From IMG/VR virus record IMGVR_UViG_3300018877_000021, positions 1-45,560 of that record: 45,560 nucleotides of DNA. One strand, written 5' to 3'. This DNA is from a virus. Made by a program: the position numbers and the translations under genes. The notes under the pieces are model-generated. The model saw nothing but the letters and a program-made list of their open reading frames with translations. It ran no database searches and had not been told where the DNA came from. The stretch's first letter is position 1. Every line of letters begins with the position of its first letter. Below are positions 7,853-24,083 of the stretch, one piece after another.

Positions 7853-8131
7853 ATGAATGGAATGGAAGAGGTTTTAATATTTGCTAGTTTGTTAGCTCCA
7901 ATTATTTTGGCTGTGGTTGAACTATTCAAGCGGACATTTGTCGTGAAAAATAACTTTATACCTCTAATGGCGTTAGTGGTCGGGCTTGTTATTGGCCTAG
8001 CAGCAGCGCCATTTACTGATTTGGACATCGTTTTACGACTATGGGCAGGCGGTTTGGCGGGATTAGCAGGAACTGGTTTGTATGAGCTAGGGATTAATAG
8101 GGAAGGCAAATCCAAAGGGATGGACTTATAA
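7853..8131 (+). CDS. Holin
   Basis: A 92-residue hydrophobic protein with membrane segments at about 5-23, 36-53 and a third weaker one at 62-79, and a short charged tail. It resembles the small holins of Bacillales and Listeria phages placed between XhlA-like and amidase genes. It should form membrane lesions that let the amidase reach peptidoglycan. The start is an ATG with GGAGGATAATTAA upstream. A second in-frame ATG two codons in (MNGMEE) could give a dual-start holin/antiholin pair, which is only a possibility. Confidence 0.85.
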   Translation: MNGMEEVLIFASLLAPIILAVVELFKRTFVVKNNFIPLMALVVGLVIGLAAAPFTDLDIVLRLWAGGLAGLAGTGLYELGINREGKSKGMDL

Positions 8132-8149
8132 AAAGGGAGGACTTAAATA

Positions 8150-8923
8150 ATGCCACAATTACAAAATGATGCAGGTCACGGTTCTAACACTTACCCGCCA
8201 AGTAAAGGGGTTCCCGGGCTTGCCGAGCATACATTCAATGCAGCTGTCGGAAGTGAGCTGAAACGATTGCTCGCTGGAAAAATTCCAACGTATGAAGCCC
8301 AAACATTTGGAGCAAAAGATGTAGCGTTATCTACTCGGACCAATTTATATAATGCCCAGTACATTAAAAATAAAGATGCTATTGGGATGTCTCATCATGC
8401 TAATGCTAATAAAGACCCAGACAGAAGGGGAATTGGTATCTTCTATTGGCACAAAAGCAGCAAAGGGAAAAAACTAGCTGAAATGATTCTTGAGGAATAT
8501 AAAAAAGAGTTTCCAGATCGTGAAAAATATCCGATTTGGGGAGACGGCTTGTTTCCTTGTGTGCCTGGCACTTGGACAAACCTCCACATGTGCCGGGAAA
8601 CATCAGCGCCTTTTGTCTTGATCGAGTGGGAGTTCATGACGAACAAAGAATCATTAGAATTATTGAAATCGGATGATTACAGGAAACGCTGTGCGCTGGT
8701 TGCAGCTCGTGTGGCTTGTCATTGGTATGGAATACAATTTGAAGACAAGGAGGTAGCTAAGGTGGCAAATAAAACGAATGAAAAAGCAGATGCGTTTGCT
8801 CAGGAGGCTCAAGAATGGGCGAAAGAAATGGGTATCTCTGATGGATCTAACCCTCGTGATTCAATCACAAGACAAGAAATTTGGGTTATGCTGCAACGAT
8901 TATATGAGAAAGTGAAAGGATAA
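8150..8923 (+). CDS. Endolysin, N-acetylmuramoyl-L-alanine amidase (Amidase_3)
   Basis: A 257-residue zinc amidase that would cut the bond between N-acetylmuramic acid and the stem peptide. Candidate zinc ligands are His10 in NDAGHGS, Glu26 and His82 or His83 in SHHAN. The catalytic glutamate is in LIEWEF (159-161). The catalytic domain spans about 1-195. A linker rich in Lys and Glu follows, then a C-terminal SLH-like half repeat (AQEWAKEMGISDGS through RLYEKVKG) that may anchor the enzyme to the wall. There is no signal peptide, as expected for a holin-dependent endolysin. It is the last gene of the lysis cassette. Confidence 0.9.
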   Translation: MPQLQNDAGHGSNTYPPSKGVPGLAEHTFNAAVGSELKRLLAGKIPTYEAQTFGAKDVALSTRTNLYNAQYIKNKDAIGMSHHANANKDPDRRGIGIFYWHKSSKGKKLAEMILEEYKKEFPDREKYPIWGDGLFPCVPGTWTNLHMCRETSAPFVLIEWEFMTNKESLELLKSDDYRKRCALVAARVACHWYGIQFEDKEVAKVANKTNEKADAFAQEAQEWAKEMGISDGSNPRDSITRQEIWVMLQRLYEKVKG

Positions 8924-10129: not shown

Positions 10130-10588
10130 TTATTCCTCTATATATGTTTTTCCTGTTTCATCTAATCCCGTTTGGGCTAACCCCTTATTATCCAGGGCCA
10201 ATTTGGCATTTATGGTCCCATCATCATTATGTACCCATAGAAATATCGAGTGAACATCTATTCGTTTATCATAAGATTGCTCTTTTACTTCTTCCATAAT
10301 TCCCTCGATTTCCTCATTTGTAGTTGCTGTTGAATCGACATCTACGTACCACATTCCCGAATTATCTAATCGTTCATTTGTGATTTCATAAGCAGGTGTT
10401 TCAGCTGGTTTTGTGGCTGGCTCTGAAGCATCGCCAAGTGTTATTCCAACTATCATTAATAATAGACATACAACGGATGCTCCCACCATTTTCTTAGCGG
10501 TTCCGTCTTTTCTTTTTCTGTAGAATGCAGCCATGATTAAAAACACAATAAATCCTAAAAAACCAAATATACCAAAAAACAGTCCCAT
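10130..10588 (-). CDS. Two-TM membrane protein with exported domain, possible conversion gene
   Basis: A 152-residue protein with two hydrophobic segments (about 4-22 and 34-51), a basic cytoplasmic loop between (RKRKDGTAKK) and a C-terminal polar domain of about 95 residues, preceded by a Pro/Thr linker. The C-terminal part should be outside the cell if the two segments form a hairpin. AAAGGAGG lies at proper spacing before the ATG. It stands alone, opposite to the lysis genes, between hairpins, which is typical of phage conversion or superinfection-exclusion genes. I recognise no defined family. Confidence 0.65.
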   Translation of the reverse strand: MGLFFGIFGFLGFIVFLIMAAFYRKRKDGTAKKMVGASVVCLLLMIVGITLGDASEPATKPAETPAYEITNERLDNSGMWYVDVDSTATTNEEIEGIMEEVKEQSYDKRIDVHSIFLWVHNDDGTINAKLALDNKGLAQTGLDETGKTYIEE

Positions 10589-10702: not shown

Positions 10703-10730
10703 CAAAAACCCCTTTATTCAAAAGGGGTTT
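10703..10730 (-). terminator. Terminator of the XRE gene at 10729
   Basis: AAACCCCTTT/AAAGGGGTTT (10 pairs, 5-base loop) is followed on the minus strand by five T. Confidence 0.75.
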
Positions 10731-10953
10731 ACATATCCCAGAAATCATCACTTTTAATATTTGGATCAATCTCTCTTAGAGCAGTAATTATTTTTTTCAT
10801 GGTTTTGTATGTAGGGGACCTATCTTTATTACTGGTTAAATCTCCAATCGTGTTCTTATTTAAACCGGTTTTTTTCATCAGCCAAGCCTGAGAAACCCCC
10901 TTCTTATCCAGCCATTTTCCTAATTTGGTGCGTGGTTTTCCTAATCCAAACAT
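10729..10953 (-). CDS. Small XRE-family helix-turn-helix protein
   Basis: A 74-residue protein with a Cro/CI-like helix-turn-helix at about 18-48 (GVSQAWLMKKTGLNKNTIGD). It ends in DDFWDM, like the XRE protein at 9033-9263, and its N-terminus (GKPRTKLGKWLDKK) is basic. AAAAGGAGAG is upstream of the ATG. It is transcribed away from the FtsK-like gene, and the 310-bp gap between them could hold its operators. A regulatory role for the cassette to the right is plausible and unproven. Confidence 0.75.
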   Translation of the reverse strand: MFGLGKPRTKLGKWLDKKGVSQAWLMKKTGLNKNTIGDLTSNKDRSPTYKTMKKIITALREIDPNIKSDDFWDM

Positions 10954-11263: not shown

Positions 11264-12601
11264 ATGTTACTGGAAATCGCCTCATCATCGGTGGTTGGCG
11301 GGATTTACTTAATTGCAAAATTCGGAGGGAAGAGGGGAAGGAAAAATGATTACGAAAAAATCATCCGGATCGCGGAAGCTTGCAATTTAAAAAAAGGAGA
11401 TGACTCCATCCAGCTTCTTCGCAAGACACAGAACAAACGATTTGTTGAATATGTTTTCCGGATTCCTTTGGGCTTGTCCTTTCAACAGTTCGAAAAACAT
11501 TTTGAGGAACTCCAGGACGGATTGAATAACAAAAAGAATGAACACACATTTGATTACAAAGGTCTTAAAAAGCTGTTGCTTTATTTGAAAAACAATCAAT
11601 TCAACCGGGAAACCTTTAGCAATGATTTGAGGGAAATGTTCTTTGAACCGAACGAGATCAGGAAACGAGTTAAGATGAGTTATGACGGAACGCTCAAAAT
11701 TAAAGTGTTTGATAAGGAATTGGAAAACATGATTCCATTCAATGAGGAATTTTTTAAGGGTTGCGAAGGCTGGTCTATCCCCTTGGGGGATGATGGTGAG
11801 AATTTTCTTAAATGGAAAATAGGTCGTGAACATGTGGGGGTAGCGGGAGGAACCAGGCAAGGGAAAACCCAGTTCCTTAAAATGCTCATTACATCTTTAG
11901 TTAAATTGTACCCCGATAAAGTGAAATTATCCTTAATAGATTTAAAAGGTGGCTTGTCCTTCCAGCGGTACAGCAATTTGAAGCAAACAGCCAATTTTGC
12001 CCATGACATACACGGGGCAACCAACGTCCTGGATGCTGTCTATAATGAAATGATCAAAAGACAGGAAAAATGTGCTGAATTAGGAGTAGAAACAGCAGAG
12101 GAAGCAGGGATTCACGAGAAACATTTTATCATCATTGACGAAGCAGCCGAACTTTCCCCAGTCATCAAGAGAGATGAAAGAAAGAAGCGCCACCAATGCC
12201 AGCAACGTCTATCAGAACTAGCGAGGATTGGGGCAGGGCTTAACTATATCATTATCTTTGCTACCCAATATCCTACAGTCGATGTCATGAGCAAAGATAT
12301 AAAATCCAATCTCAATCAAGTCGTATGTTTCAAACTTAGAAGCGGTAACCAATCACAAGTCGTTCTCGATGAATGGGGAGCGGAAAAACTACCATGTAGA
12401 GGCAGGGCCATAGTGATTGATGGAGTAGAAAAGCATGTCATTCAAGCACCTTTAATGGATGATTCGTATATCGAGAAGGTCATTACCCCTCATATCAATA
12501 TCAAACCACGAAAGGAGAATAAGGATGAAAAGCACGATCAAAAGGCAGAAAAGGGAAGAGAAGATCTTATTATCATTAAAAAAACTTCATTATCTGACTA
12601 G
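11264..12601 (+). CDS. FtsK/SpoIIIE-type DNA translocase-like ATPase
   Basis: From the ATG after AGAGGTGGG the protein has 445 residues. One membrane-like segment (ASSSVVGGIYLIAKF) lies near the N-terminus. The ATPase domain shows Walker A GGTRQGKT at about 195-202 and Walker B FIIIDEAAE at about 288-296, with RLSELARIGAGLNY and FATQYP downstream, as in FtsK/SpoIIIE and the coupling ATPases of Gram-positive conjugative elements (TcpA/ConQ-like). It lacks the four N-terminal membrane helices and gamma domain of chromosomal FtsK. The Replic_Relax-like gene starts inside its 3' end. It may move DNA at the membrane, or act in plasmid-like maintenance of the prophage. Confidence 0.85.
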   Translation: MLLEIASSSVVGGIYLIAKFGGKRGRKNDYEKIIRIAEACNLKKGDDSIQLLRKTQNKRFVEYVFRIPLGLSFQQFEKHFEELQDGLNNKKNEHTFDYKGLKKLLLYLKNNQFNRETFSNDLREMFFEPNEIRKRVKMSYDGTLKIKVFDKELENMIPFNEEFFKGCEGWSIPLGDDGENFLKWKIGREHVGVAGGTRQGKTQFLKMLITSLVKLYPDKVKLSLIDLKGGLSFQRYSNLKQTANFAHDIHGATNVLDAVYNEMIKRQEKCAELGVETAEEAGIHEKHFIIIDEAAELSPVIKRDERKKRHQCQQRLSELARIGAGLNYIIIFATQYPTVDVMSKDIKSNLNQVVCFKLRSGNQSQVVLDEWGAEKLPCRGRAIVIDGVEKHVIQAPLMDDSYIEKVITPHINIKPRKENKDEKHDQKAEKGREDLIIIKKTSLSD

Positions 12602-13106
12602 AAGCCAGCTCCAAACGCTTCACGACTTGAAATCAGATCGTAATGCTTCGCGAGTCATGAAACAACTGGAACCGTATGTTTCTTCTTTTCGTGATACAGA
12701 AAACGTCTATTATTTGAGCTCAGAAGGAAGACAGCGTGTGAATGCCAAGCGGGTCTGCAAGAAAACCTCACAGGCGCAACATTTCATCATGCGTAACAGT
12801 TTATATGTTGGCTTGGGATGCCCGGATAATTGGCAGACTGAAATGGAAATCACTATACAAGATGTGACAGTTGTCGCTGATGCTCTCTATAAGAAAGAGG
12901 GACGATATCATTTCATTGAAGTGGATTATACCCAAAAAATGAGCGTAAACAAAGAAAAAATTGAGCGGTATAAAAAGCTGGCTGAATTCACAAAGTTGCC
13001 ACCCAAATTGATTTGGATTACCACGACAGATTATAGAAGAAAACAGTTATTGTCTTTATGCAAAGGGTTAGATGTCCAGGTGTTCACAGCAGAAGATTTT
13101 CATTAA
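12525..13106 (+). CDS. Replication-relaxation (Replic_Relax) family-like protein
   Basis: A 193-residue protein starting at ATG 12525 (AAAGGAGAATAAGG upstream), inside the last 77 bases of the FtsK-like gene in another frame. The N-terminal 60 residues form a winged-helix-like region (LKKLHYLTRSQLQTLHDLKS), followed by YYLSSEGRQRV. The C-terminal half resembles the nuclease-like fold of the Replic_Relax family (VVADALYKKEGRYHFIEVD and PKLIWITTTD), with D and E-V-D positions like a PD-(D/E)XK core. The family is linked to plasmid and conjugative-element replication initiation. No tyrosine or histidine-hydrophobic-histidine relaxase motif is seen. Confidence 0.7.
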   Translation: MKSTIKRQKREEKILLSLKKLHYLTRSQLQTLHDLKSDRNASRVMKQLEPYVSSFRDTENVYYLSSEGRQRVNAKRVCKKTSQAQHFIMRNSLYVGLGCPDNWQTEMEITIQDVTVVADALYKKEGRYHFIEVDYTQKMSVNKEKIERYKKLAEFTKLPPKLIWITTTDYRRKQLLSLCKGLDVQVFTAEDFH

Positions 13107-13125
13107 AAACTAAGGGGGAAACATC

Positions 13126-13554
13126 ATGTTTAACAGGAAAATTCAAACGGTTGGAACCATCAGTGAGTTTTTAAGCAAAGAAAAAGGAATTGTGGCATCA
13201 GAAGAAGCAAGGCATGAAAGAAACTTTTATCAGGGAATGTTCCCATTTATCATGGTTCCAGCCTTGAGCTTCCCTTTAGTGTCCACCCAAACTTTCGCAG
13301 CTGGTACAGTATCAGCCACAAAGGAAAGCGTATCAGCTAGGATTATTGATGCTTTCCAACCCATCACAGATTTAGTTCAGGGATTGGCATACCCTACTGC
13401 CTTTATTATGGTATCTTGGGCGGGGATTAAATGGATGTTGAAAGATCGGGAAGGGGCCTTACAGACGTTACAAGGGGCGGCTATGGGCTTTGTCATTGTC
13501 CAGATGGCTCCACTTATCATGAAACTTCTCGTTAGTGTGACGGCAGGATTTTAG
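13126..13554 (+). CDS. Pilin-like (VirB2/T4SS pilin-type) membrane protein
   Basis: A 142-residue protein. Residues 1-35 are polar and contain KIQTVGTISEFL. A hydrophobic stretch follows (MFPFIMVPALSFPLVS) that ends near TFAAG, a possible signal-peptidase region. Two further membrane segments (AYPTAFIMVSWAGIKWML and GFVIVQMAPLIMKLLV) are joined by a short loop (DREGALQTLQG), as in T4SS pilin-like proteins. It shares KIQTVGT and the overall plan with the next gene, so they are paralogues. It is placed 19 bp after the Replic_Relax-like gene. A role in a membrane pore is inferred only from layout and context. Confidence 0.6.
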   Translation: MFNRKIQTVGTISEFLSKEKGIVASEEARHERNFYQGMFPFIMVPALSFPLVSTQTFAAGTVSATKESVSARIIDAFQPITDLVQGLAYPTAFIMVSWAGIKWMLKDREGALQTLQGAAMGFVIVQMAPLIMKLLVSVTAGF

Positions 13555-13565
13555 GAGGTGTTTCC

Positions 13566-13910
13566 ATGTTCAGGAAAATCCAGACGGTGGGAACGGTATC
13601 TTCTTTCATAAACAATGAGCCTGTCGGGTTTTGGGATAACTTTTGGAGGATGTTCACGGAACCGGGGCAAGTGGCAAAGGAAACGGCAGCGGATAAGGTG
13701 TATGACTTTACTGCCCCCTTTTTCGATATGGTTGCCATAGCGGCCTATCCAATTTGTAATACCGTCATCATGATTGGAGCGCTTTGTTATATCATCGGAT
13801 TCCGAGAGAAAACAGTGAGCTGGATTTCAAAAGCTTCCCTTGCCTATATCTTTTGTCAGATGTTGCCCTTATTACTTAGAACAGCCCTGCAGATGATTAT
13901 TTCTTACTGA
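13566..13910 (+). CDS. Pilin-like membrane protein, paralogue of the preceding gene
   Basis: A 114-residue protein starting 11 bp after the previous stop with a GGAGGTG RBS. It begins MFRKIQTVGTVSSF, close to MFNRKIQTVGTIS in the gene before. It has two membrane segments (AAYPICNTVIMIGALCYIIG and ASLAYIFCQMLPLLLRTAL) joined by FREKTVSWISK. Unlike its neighbour it lacks the long hydrophobic N-terminal segment. Its last bases overlap the end of the opposite-strand gene by 7. It probably works in the same complex as the FtsK-like ATPase; this is inference. Confidence 0.6.
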   Translation: MFRKIQTVGTVSSFINNEPVGFWDNFWRMFTEPGQVAKETAADKVYDFTAPFFDMVAIAAYPICNTVIMIGALCYIIGFREKTVSWISKASLAYIFCQMLPLLLRTALQMIISY

Positions 13911-14746
13911 TGCTCGCCCATAAAGTCTTTATCAAAATAAAACTTGTCCATCAAGTTATTAACAATCCCGTTGAAATAAGCAAACTGGCCTTTCTTCATC
14001 TCTACACCACTCTTAACCTTCATAACAAACTCTTTCATAGCACGGATCCCGATAAATAATTCCTGTTCTTGATTAAAGGCCCTTTCTTTTGCGATATGAT
14101 TCACAACTCTGTTGCATTGCTTAACAACCTTCCAGAACTCTTGGATGGTTTCTGCTTTAGTGTAAAAAGAACCTGCTAATTTAGCGAAGTTTTCTGGAAC
14201 CCAGTGTGCTACAAAATTAGCTTGTGGAATAGAATTGTTAACAGGCTTATCCACATTGTCTATTTGAGACACCCTATTACGTTTATTATTAATATTTTGT
14301 TTTAAAGAAATAGTATTTGTTTTATTGGTAGGACACTTCCCAGTCATTTCAGCAGGGGTCTTGTCGGACACTTCTTCTTCCACAGGATTGATGATGATGG
14401 CATTAGCAGTTTGTAGCATATCACTTCTTCTCTTCATTGGGATCTGCTTGATTATACCGAGATCACCCAATTTCTTCATTAAACGTTGCACAGTTTTATA
14501 GCTGATTTGTAATGCCTCAGCAATCTTATTTTTGCACATGAAACTTACACCCACATATTTGCAGCTGTGACGCTTAAGGATCTCCAGCAATGCAGTAAGT
14601 CTAACTTGTACATCAGTACGCTTAACAGACGCACGGATGGTGTCTCTATATATACGTACTGTTTTGTTTAATTCTTCTACATCATTAAAAGTAGCCAGGT
14701 TGTGGAAGGACTCTTCACTGGCAAGTATATCAATGCGTTCCTTCAT
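13904..14746 (-). CDS. Winged-helix replication/regulatory-like protein
   Basis: A 280-residue protein. The ATG at 14746 follows GGGAGACAATAATA, and I prefer it to 14797, which would lie in a terminator hairpin. Residues 60-125 look like a MarR-type or replication-initiator-like winged helix (NKIAEALQISYKTVQRLMKK, then LGDLGIIKQIP). A low-complexity linker (NNKRNRVSQ) joins it to a C-terminal helical domain ending in FNGIVNNLMDKFYFDKDF. Comparable proteins occur on plasmids and prophages of Bacillales, often near FtsK-like genes. Control of the cassette or initiation of plasmid-style replication are both possible. Confidence 0.65.
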   Translation of the reverse strand: MKERIDILASEESFHNLATFNDVEELNKTVRIYRDTIRASVKRTDVQVRLTALLEILKRHSCKYVGVSFMCKNKIAEALQISYKTVQRLMKKLGDLGIIKQIPMKRRSDMLQTANAIIINPVEEEVSDKTPAEMTGKCPTNKTNTISLKQNINNKRNRVSQIDNVDKPVNNSIPQANFVAHWVPENFAKLAGSFYTKAETIQEFWKVVKQCNRVVNHIAKERAFNQEQELFIGIRAMKEFVMKVKSGVEMKKGQFAYFNGIVNNLMDKFYFDKDFMGEHQ

Positions 14747-14771
14747 TATTATTGTCTCCCTTTCCGGAAAC

Positions 14772-14805
14772 AAAAAAGCAACGGCCTGTGTAAGCAAACC
14801 GTTGC
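14772..14805 (-). terminator. Leader terminator (attenuator-like) ahead of the winged-helix gene
   Basis: On the minus strand GCAACGG pairs with CCGTTGC around a 14-base loop, followed by six T; the RBS of the gene begins 12 bases later. A terminator between promoter and gene implies readthrough control. A minus-strand TATAAT at about 14831 is a possible -10. Confidence 0.65.
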
Positions 14806-14951
14806 TAATGAACCCCCATATAATGTAAAATTATAAATGAGGGTACAGCAAGTGTTTGCCTAGTGATGGTAGGCGGACGGTATAAGAGTGTTGGTAGCAC
14901 TACTTATACACGCTGTGCTCTTTTGTTTTTTTAGATAAATAGTAGGTATAT

Positions 14952-15164
14952 GTGATACCGTTTGTGATACCGATTTTTATGATAGATTTGATTTTTTCTG
15001 TTTTTTCATTCTTCGTGATACTACCTAAATGTTGATTTAATGCGGATTTGTACTTTTTATTCGTTTGTATATAGTCGAAATGGAAGGTTCTATAGGTTAA
15101 GCGAAATTCAAGCGTATCAATGACTGGACGGTATTAAATATCATTATGATACCAATATGATACC
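14952..15164. other. Putative attP region with paired GATACC arm-type repeats
   Basis: Direct repeats TGATACC occur at 14952, 14964, 15147 and 15158, as two pairs spaced 11-12 bp, plus a variant (GTGATACTACC) at 15015. They flank about 175 bp at the 3' side of the integrase gene. This is the position and layout of Int arm sites in phage attP. I cannot identify the crossover core without the host attB. The rest of 14806-15166 has no gene; GCCTA/TAGGC dyad at 14859-14874 is noted. Confidence 0.55.
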
Positions 15165-15166
15165 GT

Positions 15167-16207
15167 TTAGTCGAATACGCTCATAACTTCCTGTTTGCGT
15201 TCCACATACAAATGCCCGTATGTATTAGCCGTTTGTTTTATGTCATCATGCCTCATTAGTTCTTTGACTAGGTAGATATCTACCCCTTTATTTATTAAAT
15301 AGGTGGCATAACTATGACGTAAATCGTGGATTCGTAATTCTGGAAAAACGATCTTAAAATGTTTATGATAATGTGAATAGTGATAAGGTGCTAACCCACC
15401 AAACACATATACATCCTCATTGAATCCGTATATTTTATCTGCGGATTCTTTTTTTATTTCTGAAAGCATTTCACTTATAAACAAAGGAAAAGGTACATAT
15501 CCTTCGCTACCAGCTGTTTTAGGAGACGTGGGCATCCTCGTTTTTATATCTAACGTCTTGCTCACGTATAATTGATTCTTTGTTAAATCAATGTCTTTCC
15601 ATGTGAGAGCCAAAGCTTCACCAATCCGTAAGCCGGTATAAAACAATAAACGTGTCAATTCTTTGTAGAAGTGCATATCAAATTCTGTTACCCTTTTTTC
15701 GAATTCCTCACGTTTGATGTAGTTTATTTTCGGCCGAACACGCTGGATAGGATCAACGATCAAAGTTGGATCTATTTTCAATCCGAAAAATTTAACTGAG
15801 TGATTGATTAAGATTTTGAAATTACTGTATACTGTTCGGGCACTATTTAGTGATTCAAAATGATTTTCTAGTTTGGTTTTAAAATCCATTACATGCTGCA
15901 CGTTAATATCCTTAACTTTCATATGCCCGAAAAATGGTTTTATATGCTTATTGTACTCATTGGTTCTACGTCGAATAGTTTTTTCCTTTAGTTTCTTATG
16001 TTTGATGTTGTGTTCAAATACTTCATCGAATGTCACTTCATCTGAAAAAGCATTTTTGATACTTGCAATAAATTCAGCTTCAGCTATGACAGCTTCTTTT
16101 CTCCCTTTAAATCCTCTTTTCAGCTTTTGTTTGTTCCGGCCGTACATATCTTTATAACGAACTTTAAAATACCAGGTATTACGTTCTTTATCTTTATAAA
16201 CAGGCAT
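15167..16207 (-). CDS. int: Tyrosine recombinase (phage integrase)
   Basis: A 346-residue integrase of the Tn916/phage type. The N-terminal 45 residues are the AP2-like arm-binding domain ([16 protein letters not shown]). The core-binding SAM-like domain spans about 55-150. The catalytic domain has Arg194 (TGLRIGEAL), Lys230 region (SPKTAG), His294 and Arg297 (HDLRHSYA), His320 (MRHDD) and Tyr330 (NTYGHLY), so the full R-K-H-R-H-Y set is present. It would integrate the phage at attP, probably located beside the 3' end of the gene at 14.95-15.16 kb. The gene ends within the arm-repeat region and is transcribed with the ImmA/repressor genes or from its own promoter. Confidence 0.95.
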
Positions 16208-21160: not shown

Positions 21161-21200
21161 GTACCCAAAATAGCGAAATAGTTCTTTATTGGAGGGCGAA

Positions 21201-23543
21201 ATGAAGGAAAATCCATACAATTTTAACGAAATCCCTGCCGAACTAAAAGCCCTTCCTCAATGGATTTTGTGGAGGTCAGAAAAGCGAAATAACAAGCCAA
21301 CCAAAGTGCCATATCAAGTAAATGGTGAAATGGCACAGGCTAACAATAGACGTACTTGGTCGACATTTGCAACGGCAGTCAAATTCTATTTGGAAGGCGA
21401 CTATGACGGCATAGGATTCGTATTTAGCAGACAGGATAACTACATCGGTATTGATATTGATAAGTGTGTTGTAGATGGAAAAATAAATGCTTTCGCAACG
21501 GAAATTATCGACACTTTAGACAGCTATACAGAGTTTTCTCCGTCAGGAAATGGTATTCACATCATTATTAAAGGGAATCTTCCACAATCTGTTTTAGGTA
21601 CTGGACGGAAAAACACTAAACATGGCTTAGAAATTTATTCATACGGTCGATATTTTAGCTTTACTGGAAACCGTGAAAATTCTAACGATGTCTATGATCG
21701 TACAGATGAACTAGCAGAGGTATTTGAGCAATATTTTGATGATAGCGATATTCAAGGGCGTGTGAATCTTGCGGATTTTGAAAAAGATGAAATAAAAATT
21801 TCCAATGACGCGCTGTGGGAGAGAATATTTCGTTCAAAAAATGGTGATGAAATTCGTTCGTTGTATAACGGAAATTTAATTAATAATGACCACTCAGCCA
21901 GTGACTTGGCCCTATGTAACCATCTCGCATTTTGGACAGGGAAATCAGCAACCCGAATGGATACGATGTTCCGAGAATCCGGCCTGATGCGTGATAAATG
22001 GGATGTTATTCATTTTAGGGATACAAACGAGACATATGGTGAGAGAACGATAGCGACAGCTATTTCATCAACTTCCACAACTATTTTAGACAACAAGGAA
22101 CAATTCGAGGAATTTTCTTTTGACTTTCACACTGGAGATGCAGCAGAGGTTGTGGAAGAAAAGCCGAAAAAGAAATTTCGTTTAACCGAACTTGGAAATG
22201 CCGAACGTATTGCATATGAATATGGCCATGTAATCAAATATGTTAGCGACATGGGCTGGCTGATATGGGACGGAAAACGGTGGAAAATCGATAACAAGAA
22301 AGAGATTGAGCGTATTACTGCCAAAGTATTACGGGGCTTGTATAAATCTGAAGATGAAGCTGAAACGAAATGGGCGCGAATGTGCGAAAGAAGAAATATC
22401 CGTATGAATAGCATTAAGGACTTAATGCCACTTGTCCCAGCCGAACGTGAAGACTTCGACCGGCATAAATATTTGTTCAATGTTGAAAATGGCATCGTGG
22501 ATTTAAAAACAGGAAAACTGCAGCCGCATGATCGGGAGCTCGCTCTCACTAAAATCACTAATGTTGAATTTGATGAAAACGCAAAATGTCCAACATGGTC
22601 AGTTTTCTTGGAACAAATATTCAAAGGAGACAAAGAATTAATAGATTATATGCAAAGGCTTGTTGGTTACTCGCTAACCGGAGATATTTCAGAGCAATCC
22701 ATGTATTTCTTAGTCGGCGGTGGCTCAAATGGAAAATCGACATTTGTAAACACCATTAAAAAATTAATGGGCGATTACGGTTCACAAACAAAGTCAGATA
22801 CGTTCATCAAGAAAAAAGACACCGGGGCAAATAATGATATTGCTAGATTAGTAAATGCTAGATTTGTTTCGGCAGTTGAATCAGAAGAAGGCGAAAAATT
22901 ACAGGAGTCACTGGTTAAGACGATTACAGGTGGCGAACCGATTTTAGCCCGATTTTTACGACAAGAGTATTTCGAATTTATCCCAGAATTTAAAGTTTTT
23001 TTTACAACTAATCATAAGCCGATAATCGGCGGTGTAGATGATGGTATTTGGAGACGTGTGAAAATCATCCCATTTACTTTAAACCTCAAACCGCATGAAC
23101 GCGACAAAAAGCTTGAAGAAAAGTTATCGCTTGAAATGTCTGGAATTTTAAATTGGGCCATAGAGGGTTGCTTGAAGTGGCAGCAGTCGGGATTGCAGGA
23201 ACCAAAGGTTGTAACGGACGCGACAGGCAATTACAAAGAGGAAATGGATATTTTAGCACCATTCCTCAATGAAATTTGCTACATTGACGAACCGAAAAAT
23301 GAAGCAATCAAAATCGAAGCGAAAGAATTATACAACGTGTATGACAATTGGTGCTTTAAATCTGGTGAACGAACTTTAGGAAATAGATCGTTTTATCGCA
23401 TGTTGGAAACGAAAGGCTTTGGAAAAATGAAGGGAGCTGGCAACAAAACGTTTTTGACAGGAATTACCTTGAAAGAGCGTATGCCAGTTACTAAAGGGGT
23501 TACCGATAACGAGAAAAACGGCTTTTTTAAGGTCGTTCAATAA
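21201..23543 (+). CDS. Primase-polymerase/SF3 helicase (phage/plasmid primase, P4 type)
   Basis: A 780-residue replication protein starting at ATG 21201 (GGAGGGCGAA upstream). The N-terminal prim-pol-like part has IGIDIDK (Asp85 and Asp87) and SPSGNGIH at about 113-120, as in archaeo-eukaryotic primases. Residues about 330-480 look like the D5_N domain. The SF3 helicase domain has Walker A GGGSNGKST near 506-515 and a Walker B region VSAVESEEG, followed by the arginine-rich ARFLRQEYFEF. The C-terminal winged helix (ELYNVYDNWC and FYRMLE) is at about 705-765. It probably melts the origin just downstream and primes replication. Confidence 0.9.
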   Translation: MKENPYNFNEIPAELKALPQWILWRSEKRNNKPTKVPYQVNGEMAQANNRRTWSTFATAVKFYLEGDYDGIGFVFSRQDNYIGIDIDKCVVDGKINAFATEIIDTLDSYTEFSPSGNGIHIIIKGNLPQSVLGTGRKNTKHGLEIYSYGRYFSFTGNRENSNDVYDRTDELAEVFEQYFDDSDIQGRVNLADFEKDEIKISNDALWERIFRSKNGDEIRSLYNGNLINNDHSASDLALCNHLAFWTGKSATRMDTMFRESGLMRDKWDVIHFRDTNETYGERTIATAISSTSTTILDNKEQFEEFSFDFHTGDAAEVVEEKPKKKFRLTELGNAERIAYEYGHVIKYVSDMGWLIWDGKRWKIDNKKEIERITAKVLRGLYKSEDEAETKWARMCERRNIRMNSIKDLMPLVPAEREDFDRHKYLFNVENGIVDLKTGKLQPHDRELALTKITNVEFDENAKCPTWSVFLEQIFKGDKELIDYMQRLVGYSLTGDISEQSMYFLVGGGSNGKSTFVNTIKKLMGDYGSQTKSDTFIKKKDTGANNDIARLVNARFVSAVESEEGEKLQESLVKTITGGEPILARFLRQEYFEFIPEFKVFFTTNHKPIIGGVDDGIWRRVKIIPFTLNLKPHERDKKLEEKLSLEMSGILNWAIEGCLKWQQSGLQEPKVVTDATGNYKEEMDILAPFLNEICYIDEPKNEAIKIEAKELYNVYDNWCFKSGERTLGNRSFYRMLETKGFGKMKGAGNKTFLTGITLKERMPVTKGVTDNEKNGFFKVVQ

Positions 23544-23837
23544 CTCGAAAGTTACTTTAGATAACTCCAAGTAAATTAGTGTGAATTCAGTAGTACCAAG
23601 GCTTCAAGTACTGTTTTTAGTTTTAAAGTTATTTTAGTTATTGGGATATTTATTAAGTAAAAAAATCAAAATAAATATATAAGTATATTAGGAGCAGTAA
23701 TGCTGTTTTGCTAATAACTAGAATAACTTTTGCCTTCAATCCCTTGTGGCTCTAAGGCTCGAACGATTTTTCTTTAATAACTTTTGAGGATTTTTAGATA
23801 ACTCGATGCTTTTTCAGTAACTCGGAGGCGATAAAAT
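23537..23837. other. Putative replication origin: ATAACT iterons around an AT-rich core
   Basis: Repeated motifs of the form (A/G)ATAACTC occur: AATAACTC at the primase stop (23539), GATAACTC at 23560 and 23797, and a GTAACTC at 23816. More AATAACT units lie near 23713, 23722 and 23775, and reverse-oriented AGTTA copies near 23550. Positions are within a few bases. An AT-rich stretch (23649-23690, ATATATAAGTATATTA) lies between the groups. An iteron/DUE layout next to a primase-helicase is what an origin would show. No ORF is present. Confidence 0.6.
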
Positions 23838-24083
23838 ATGGAAATTTATGCAGAACCATATATAGAGCATGAGATTGAAGATTTCATAAAAAGGAGAATA
23901 AGAAGGTCAAGCTGCACTGAATGCACAGGATTAGAGCTTTATCGAGCTTATAAACAGTGGTGTAAGGAATTCAACACTTTACCGAAATCGAGAAATAAAT
24001 TTTACGAAACGTTGGAAAAAGATTTTATAAAAGTTAGAGATAAAAAATATGGAATCATTTTCTTAGAAGCGAGATTGAGATAA
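23838..24083 (+). CDS. Stand-alone primase C-terminal winged-helix-like protein
   Basis: An 81-residue protein with CTCGGAGGCGATAAAAT before its ATG. Residues 30-75 align by eye with the last winged helix of the primase at 21201: GLELYRAYKQWC versus AKELYNVYDNWC, and NKFYETLE versus RSFYRMLE, ending FLEARL versus FLTGITL. It therefore seems to be a separate copy of the D5_C-type DNA-binding domain. It lies on the other side of the iteron region and could bind it. It overlaps the next gene by one base. Confidence 0.65.
   Translation: MEIYAEPYIEHEIEDFIKRRIRRSSCTECTGLELYRAYKQWCKEFNTLPKSRNKFYETLEKDFIKVRDKKYGIIFLEARLR

Follow-up and report, generated by a model that had tools for sequence, protein, structure and literature searches.

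A recurring operon joins an FtsK/TcpA-type motor to VirB2-like pilins in Bacillaceae phages

Introduction

Streptomyces TraB is an FtsK-type motor for double-stranded DNA in a Gram-positive organism; the winged helix with which it recognises DNA lies in the same chain, and no pilin is needed. TcpA, the FtsK-family coupling protein of pCW3 conjugation, operates with the full tcp transfer apparatus of Clostridium perfringens. The Ced and Ted systems of Crenarchaeota are very small DNA-import systems, with VirB2-like pilins and a HerA/VirB4-like motor, that were domesticated from type IV secretion systems (T4SSs) (PMC9905601). Monoderms are described as lacking conjugative pili (PMC9905601). Here, we describe a cassette of four genes at positions 11264-13910 of a 45,560-base virus contig (IMG/VR record IMGVR_UViG_3300018877_000021; this whole contig is called the window below). 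The cassette is a fixed operon of T4SS ancestry in which the pilin and the motor are linked. We tentatively propose, with somewhat less than even confidence, that it encodes a reduced T4SS-derived complex that translocates DNA at the membrane and handles the phage's own DNA.

Related phage genes have been given several roles. For the FtsK gene of phage Pony, a part in DNA injection was proposed (PMC3853050), and links to SOS have also been raised (PMC9476937). In Tyroviruses, the gp11-gp18 region contains ParM, RHH, a replication-relaxation protein and a type IV secretion protein, and the authors see a conjugative plasmid as its possible source (PMC9703825). We found no report of a phage-encoded T4SS in the open-licence literature.

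Composition of the cassette

The four genes are all on the plus strand, each with a ribosome-binding site. A divergent regulator gene belongs to the recurring form of the cassette.

11264..12601, plus strand: motor ATPase of FtsK/TcpA type, 445 residues, with an N-terminal hydrophobic helix (Pfam PF01580, 1.5e-16; ATG at 11264)
12525..13106, plus strand: Replic_Relax protein, 193 residues, winged helix plus PD-(D/E)XK-like domain (Pfam PF13814, 7.5e-14)
13126..13554, plus strand: P1, VirB2/TrbC-type pilin-like membrane protein, 142 residues (Pfam PF04956, 4.3e-8; PF18895, 3.5e-6)
13566..13910, plus strand: P2, paralogue of P1, 114 residues (phrog_28964, 1.8e-21; alignment; DNA repeat)
10729..10953, minus strand: divergent XRE/Cro-type regulator (Pfam HTH_26, 3e-5; HTH_3, 7.5e-5)

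The motor, whose Pfam family is FtsK_SpoIIIE, contains a Walker A sequence (GTRQGKT) and a Walker B sequence (IIIDEA), with key residues invariant among 51 relatives. Its best solved-structure relative in a PDB profile search was TcpA (6o1z, 2e-40), with FtsK and EccC ranking behind. The original prediction, made from the sequence alone, had called for a coupling-type ATPase with intact Walker motifs and for a Replic_Relax gene starting inside it; both were confirmed, the second by an overlap of 77 nucleotides (12525 against the motor end at 12601). An AlphaFold2 model of the motor (predicted local distance difference test score [pLDDT], 86.4) consists of a single N-terminal hydrophobic helix (residues 2-21), an alpha-type subdomain and a RecA-like motor. 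The model shows no gamma winged helix at the C terminus; it ends at about residue 410 and is followed by a disordered tail. Foldseek placed TcpA first (8.7e-25) and also matched FtsK, and in VIA-align FtsK and TcpA tied at a Z of ~31. A terminase reading of the cassette parts was rejected on family matches.

The motor is recognisably related to EccC domains, as would be expected if the motor acted like EccC of type VII secretion and exported protein via a pilin patch. However, TcpA and FtsK, both linked to DNA, are closer to it, and its constant partner is a protein of the DNA-binding type. No WXG100-like substrate gene was noticed beside the cassette, where no systematic search was made. We consider a protein-secretion device very improbable.

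P1 passes the curated Pfam cut-offs for both TrbC/VIRB2 (PF04956) and T4SS_pilin (PF18895). It has an N-terminal KIQTVGTISEF motif, a signal-like segment ending TFA-AG and two hydrophobic helices. P2 matched no Pfam family above cut-off. Since it falls in the same PHROG family as P1, the two are paralogues; P2 lacks the signal-like segment of P1 and keeps the N-terminal KIQTVGT motif. This start is conserved in DNA as well (24 nucleotides, 88%), and the whole proteins are 29% identical. Two pilin-like membrane proteins sharing KIQTVGT had thus been predicted correctly. A holin identity, which had been named as a finding that would count against the prediction, was rejected on the pilin-family matches and on the presence of the phage's own holin at 7853-8131. 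Searched against PDB profiles, the pilin alignment matched only CD9, at chance level.

Pilins found with either of the two motor types described below carry an N-terminal KxQTVGTxxEF motif, or variants of it, before the signal-like segment (window 13126-13160 and 13566-13600, and relatives). A cut at the AxA-like site would remove this motif. A regular expression caught it in 16 of 54 sequences; it was seen by eye in most and is too variable for a pattern.

The Replic_Relax protein also gave a model of two parts (pLDDT, 96.5). Residues 1-75 form a MarR-like winged helix (VIA Z of ~11 to the MarR family); the VIA matches listed were MarR proteins, cover the winged helix only and are uninformative on the C-terminal domain. 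The rest resembles the PD-(D/E)XK nucleases Cdn1, Can2 and Bax1 (Foldseek, 6e-5 to 1e-3; template modelling score, ~0.4). Across 62 sequences, E106 is near-invariant and D119, E132, D134, N142 and K145 are invariant. Nuclease activity is uncertain because the canonical ExK position reads E-V-D; K145 of the next helix may serve in place of the missing lysine. A PDB profile search with the Replic_Relax alignment returned nothing. The predicted replication/relaxation-like nature appears not to hold in the sense of a relaxase: the model combines a winged helix with a PD-(D/E)XK-like fold, no relaxase family was matched, and we set this identity aside.

Recurrence of the cassette

A tblastn search of 50,697 phage records found Replic_Relax in 58, including 49 from Bacillus and 6 from Geobacillus; two of the records with a match are labelled Staphylococcus aureus. 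The motor gene adjoined or overlapped Replic_Relax in the regions of these records that were read. We then scanned viral contigs with the Replic_Relax alignment only, which is blind to the other genes, and obtained 80 loci. The motor was directly upstream in 79 of them, and the remaining locus starts at the edge of its stretch. A same-strand pilin followed Replic_Relax in 65 loci, at a median gap of 26 nucleotides; in 10 of the 15 loci that lack one, the flank extends for 1.7 kb or more. When viral contigs were scanned with a single protein, P1 gave 0 loci and Replic_Relax 2, and the pilin alignment was too divergent for contig scanning.

Among named genomes, a scan yielded 23 loci, which are all from Bacillaceae by name and nearly all with the divergent XRE gene, motor, Replic_Relax and pilin. 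In 299 genomes from the order of one carrier, 39 had a Replic_Relax match at an E value of ≤0.001, most of them very strong. Relatives were found spread through Bacillaceae. A divergent XRE gene precedes the motor in 70 of 113 loci and, among the loci from host genomes, in nearly every one. We concluded that the general unit is a divergent XRE regulator, motor, Replic_Relax and pilin. The XRE gene probably controls expression of the cassette. The second pilin is found mainly in one clade (the window, Silence, L010, L023, L040 and L048/L125). Conserved synteny had been proposed as a check of the original prediction; because co-occurrence is recurrent and the membrane proteins are not holins, the prediction stands on both counts.

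Versions of the cassette are present in the laboratory B. subtilis phages SPO1, PM1 and 019DV002. The motor-Replic_Relax pair occurs in many related virulent phages (Andromedavirus and Page groups) and in temperate phages. Without a pilin, it also occurs on plasmids that lack phage structural genes, such as pBEH5, where it lies near ParA.

Several large plasmids of Priestia and Bacillus (L102, L103) carry the pair with an XRE gene and no pilin. A small RHH-like DNA-binding protein is encoded beside the unit in many loci of either motor type (L007, 9429-9656; L004, 7195-7428 and 7650-7871; L131, 2651-2956), and some loci that lack the pilin have two copies of it (L075, L087, L088, L093).

Occurrence in both virulent and temperate phages would suit a role in second-step genome entry, as suggested for the Pony gene (PMC3853050). 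Once the first genes had been expressed, the motor and membrane proteins would draw the remaining DNA into the cell. A report that the FtsK-like gene of phage Fah is delayed-early, for which DNA translocation during infection was suggested, also suits this role (PMC4113786). However, the main difference between phages 268TH007 and 268TH002, which are 96% identical, is a 2,525-bp piece with the motor, Replic_Relax, a helix-turn-helix gene and a hypothetical gene (PMC9476937). Phage 268TH002 survives without this piece, and the cassette is therefore dispensable at least there. In addition, the motor-Replic_Relax pair is found on plasmids that inject nothing, and the window copy has a divergent regulator nearby, which would suit a gene that acts at a stage other than entry. 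A function in entry is accordingly quite improbable.

Pilin and motor vary together

We compared the residues between a YRIPxG-type motif and a KIKVFDK-type strand of the motor across loci, setting aside L008, in which the motor open reading frame is split. The length is 64-82 residues in all 76 loci with a pilin and does not exceed 44 in any of the 19 loci without one. Thus, an extra segment of ~30 residues is present in 76/76 and 0/19 loci, respectively. In 38 further loci, the rule held wherever testable (71-82 residues with a pilin and 35-41 without); in this set, L105 has a broken motor open reading frame, L107 ends 14 nucleotides past Replic_Relax, and some genomes repeat loci of the first set.

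In a tree of the motor domain built without the segment, pilin and segment both change three times, and they change together. This joint switching is suggestive of linkage and is not statistically strong, because only two of the changes are on well-supported branches. The AlphaFold2 model shows the segment as two helices (~99-109 and 118-126). By analogy with FtsK architecture, the subdomain that carries the segment would face the membrane.

Related machines in other phages

A P1-type protein is also encoded directly before a VirD4/VirB4-like ATPase of 718-754 residues in phages D6E, TP-84, 055SW001 and BpsM-61, where this ATPase replaces the motor and Replic_Relax. D6E, with the VirD4/VirB4-like version, and Geobacillus phage PK5.2, with the FtsK version, use the same site, from endolysin to serine integrase, with the same small gene after it. 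The ATPase family reaches SPO1 gp27.4, GBK2, 000TH010 and phage G gp156. In GBK2 and 000TH010, which are more distant, two small two-span proteins precede the ATPase, and the first matches the pilin profile.

Jumbo phage G has a larger set (NC_023719.1, L129 5050-11415), in which gp150, gp153, gp155 and gp156 resemble VirB2, VirB6, VirB4 and VirD4. The gp150 protein starts with a motif of the same kind (VVGTIAEL) and passes the T4SS_pilin cut-off (3.7e-6); direct profile comparison with the small-phage pilins gave a moderate match (E value of 2e-4, probability of 46%). The gp153 protein matches TrbL_4, of the VirB6 type (1.8e-11). The VirB4-like gp155 matches the TraG P-loop (1.6e-15) and CD1110-type VirB4 (3e-51, under the equivalog cut-off), and the match of gp156 to VirD4/TraD is weaker. 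Phage G also encodes a Replic_Relax protein, gp146. Judged by these matches, the genes look like a near-complete type IV secretion core. By eye only, gp154 is a possible VirB3/PrgI-type protein.

SPO1 has a run comprising an actin-like ParM (27.9), small membrane proteins, the relative of the VirD4-like ATPase (27.4) and Replic_Relax (27.3). From the gene sets of phage G and SPO1, we concluded that the small cassette is a reduced relative of type IV secretion. Separately, SPO1 genes 27.9-27.3 (NC_011421.1, L128 1941-7451) are similar to Tyrovirus gp11-gp18 as described.

ParM and RHH genes also neighbour the D6E version. Together with ParM in SPO1, ParM and RHH in Tyroviruses (PMC9703825), ParA near the pair on pBEH5 and the RHH genes beside many units, they are consistent with a membrane-bound replication or segregation complex. 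Here, the motor, winged-helix protein and membrane proteins would anchor and sort phage DNA in the cell without any crossing. Such a complex leaves the VirB2-like pilins and the VirB6/VirB4/VirD4 set of phage G unexplained, and we consider it distinctly unlikely.

Superinfection exclusion or anti-phage defence would have the pilin-like proteins sit in the membrane while the motor and the nuclease-like Replic_Relax protein intercept, expel or cut incoming DNA. The cassette has an accessory position between lysis and lysogeny genes and its own XRE regulator, and it is present or absent as the 2,525-bp difference between 268TH007 and 268TH002 (PMC9476937). The nuclease-like Replic_Relax fold, and a motor fold common to HerA-type defence ATPases, also fit. 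In contrast, PADLOC showed no family-level match, only motor-fold similarity (SspH, mad8, HerA) and a weak SduA match. As noted above, many related virulent phages have the motor-Replic_Relax pair, and the near-complete T4SS homology in phage G and the plasmids with ParA fit transport better. We regard defence as rather unlikely.

Comparison with known transfer systems

The cassette has two T4SS components, a VirB2/TrbC-type pilin and a coupling-type ATPase, and shares both with minimised bacterial T4SSs (VirB2/VirB4/VirB6/VirD4). VirB4, VirB6 and a relaxase were sought and not matched among the 40 window proteins scanned, which included every open reading frame of >500 residues. No multi-span channel of the VirB6/TrbL type was matched in Pfam, and no listed window gene has more than three hydrophobic segments. 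The cassette is therefore not a complete conjugation system or T4SS. The prediction of a mini conjugation-like cassette is largely borne out in ancestry and anatomy.

TcpA is the closest solved relative of the motor by both sequence and Foldseek. Unlike the TcpA system, the cassette has only pilin-like proteins and Replic_Relax beside its motor, and the motor segment varies with the pilin in the family. The NCBIfam plasmid_TraB model gave 14 bits with the motor (cut-off, 800), and the cassette appears to differ from TraB in placing the winged helix on a separate protein. It is like Ced/Ted in being minimal; Ced/Ted, however, is archaeal, has a host-chromosome role and has a VirB6-like CedA/TedA channel (PMC9905601), of which we found no counterpart in the window. 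The Tyrovirus region, by its authors' annotation, has a type IV secretion protein in place of the FtsK motor, and no description of pilins was seen for it (PMC9703825). By analogy with these systems, the nearest comparison for the working of the cassette would be a coupling protein that acts with a pilin patch.

Neighbouring genes

The remaining features that border the cassette are as follows.

7853-8923: lysis genes, with the holin at 7853-8131
13904-14797, minus strand: convergent gene directly after P2, before the integrase
15167..16207, minus strand: tyrosine integrase, a neighbour outside the machine (Pfam Phage_integrase, 2.3e-20)

The window also has terminase, portal, capsid and tail genes. 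The integrase, repressor-type genes and tail proteins indicate that the source phage is probably a temperate siphophage. A membrane protein gene adjoining the XRE regulator (10130-10588, minus strand) had no relative in any fetched locus. A search near the cassette for a TraB-like repeated recognition site found only short chance-like repeats and one 14-nucleotide triplet beside the integrase. Three near-copies of ATGTGATACCGTTT, at 14950-14975 and 15155-15168 beside the integrase gene, are possible integrase arm sites or att-related sequences. A D5/NrS-1-type primase-helicase gene at 21189-24083 may have an interrupted or duplicated end; the Pox_D5 match of 21189-23543 is found again in a separate downstream open reading frame (23838-24083).

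Discussion

In the reduced DNA-translocation complex that we propose, P1 and P2 would make a patch or channel in the cytoplasmic membrane. The motor would be anchored beside this patch by its N-terminal helix and dock via its extra N-terminal segment. Replic_Relax, translationally coupled to the motor, would provide through its winged helix the sequence-specific DNA binding that the motor lacks, and its PD-(D/E)XK-like domain may process DNA. ATP hydrolysis would then drive double-stranded DNA across or along the membrane. The cargo would most likely be the phage's extrachromosomal DNA, delivered to a neighbouring cell or to the forespore of a sporulating host. We infer this division of labour, with pilin patch, docked motor and winged-helix adaptor, and with it complex formation, cargo, direction and purpose.

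The motor-Replic_Relax pair on plasmids without phage structural genes fits the handling of an element's own DNA. This occurrence and the dispensability seen in 268TH007 and 268TH002 lead us to favour, with modest confidence, a membrane-based role in handling the element's own DNA rather than one in genome entry or defence. Several points weigh on the other side. With VirB6, VirB4 and a relaxase not found in the window, an export channel through the cell wall is unaccounted for. The motor-Replic_Relax pair is retained by some phages that have no pilin. Proteins rather than DNA are the cargo of the motor's EccC-type relatives, and only two or three independent events underlie the co-change on the tree, a number too small for significance. 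The literature searched yielded no data on transfer, localisation or biochemistry. We had also considered a restriction to spore-forming hosts as support for transfer into the forespore and set it aside: the named hosts are all one family, so that common descent explains the host restriction equally well, and the two phage records labelled Staphylococcus aureus also count against it.

A broader possibility, which we consider doubtful, is a family of minimal T4SS-derived machines in phages of endospore-forming Bacillaceae. In these machines, FtsK-type and VirD4-type motors would be interchangeable, each working with a shared type of VirB2-like pilin, and phage DNA would pass to other cells or to the forespore with no virion involved. 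In the usual view, tailed phages travel only as virions or within lysogens as these divide. VirB2-like pilins are noteworthy in a monoderm setting (PMC9905601), and the linkage between pilin and motor segment offers a directly testable interface. Together, the recurring unit and the near-complete T4SS core of phage G would imply that conjugation machinery was taken up by phages more than once.

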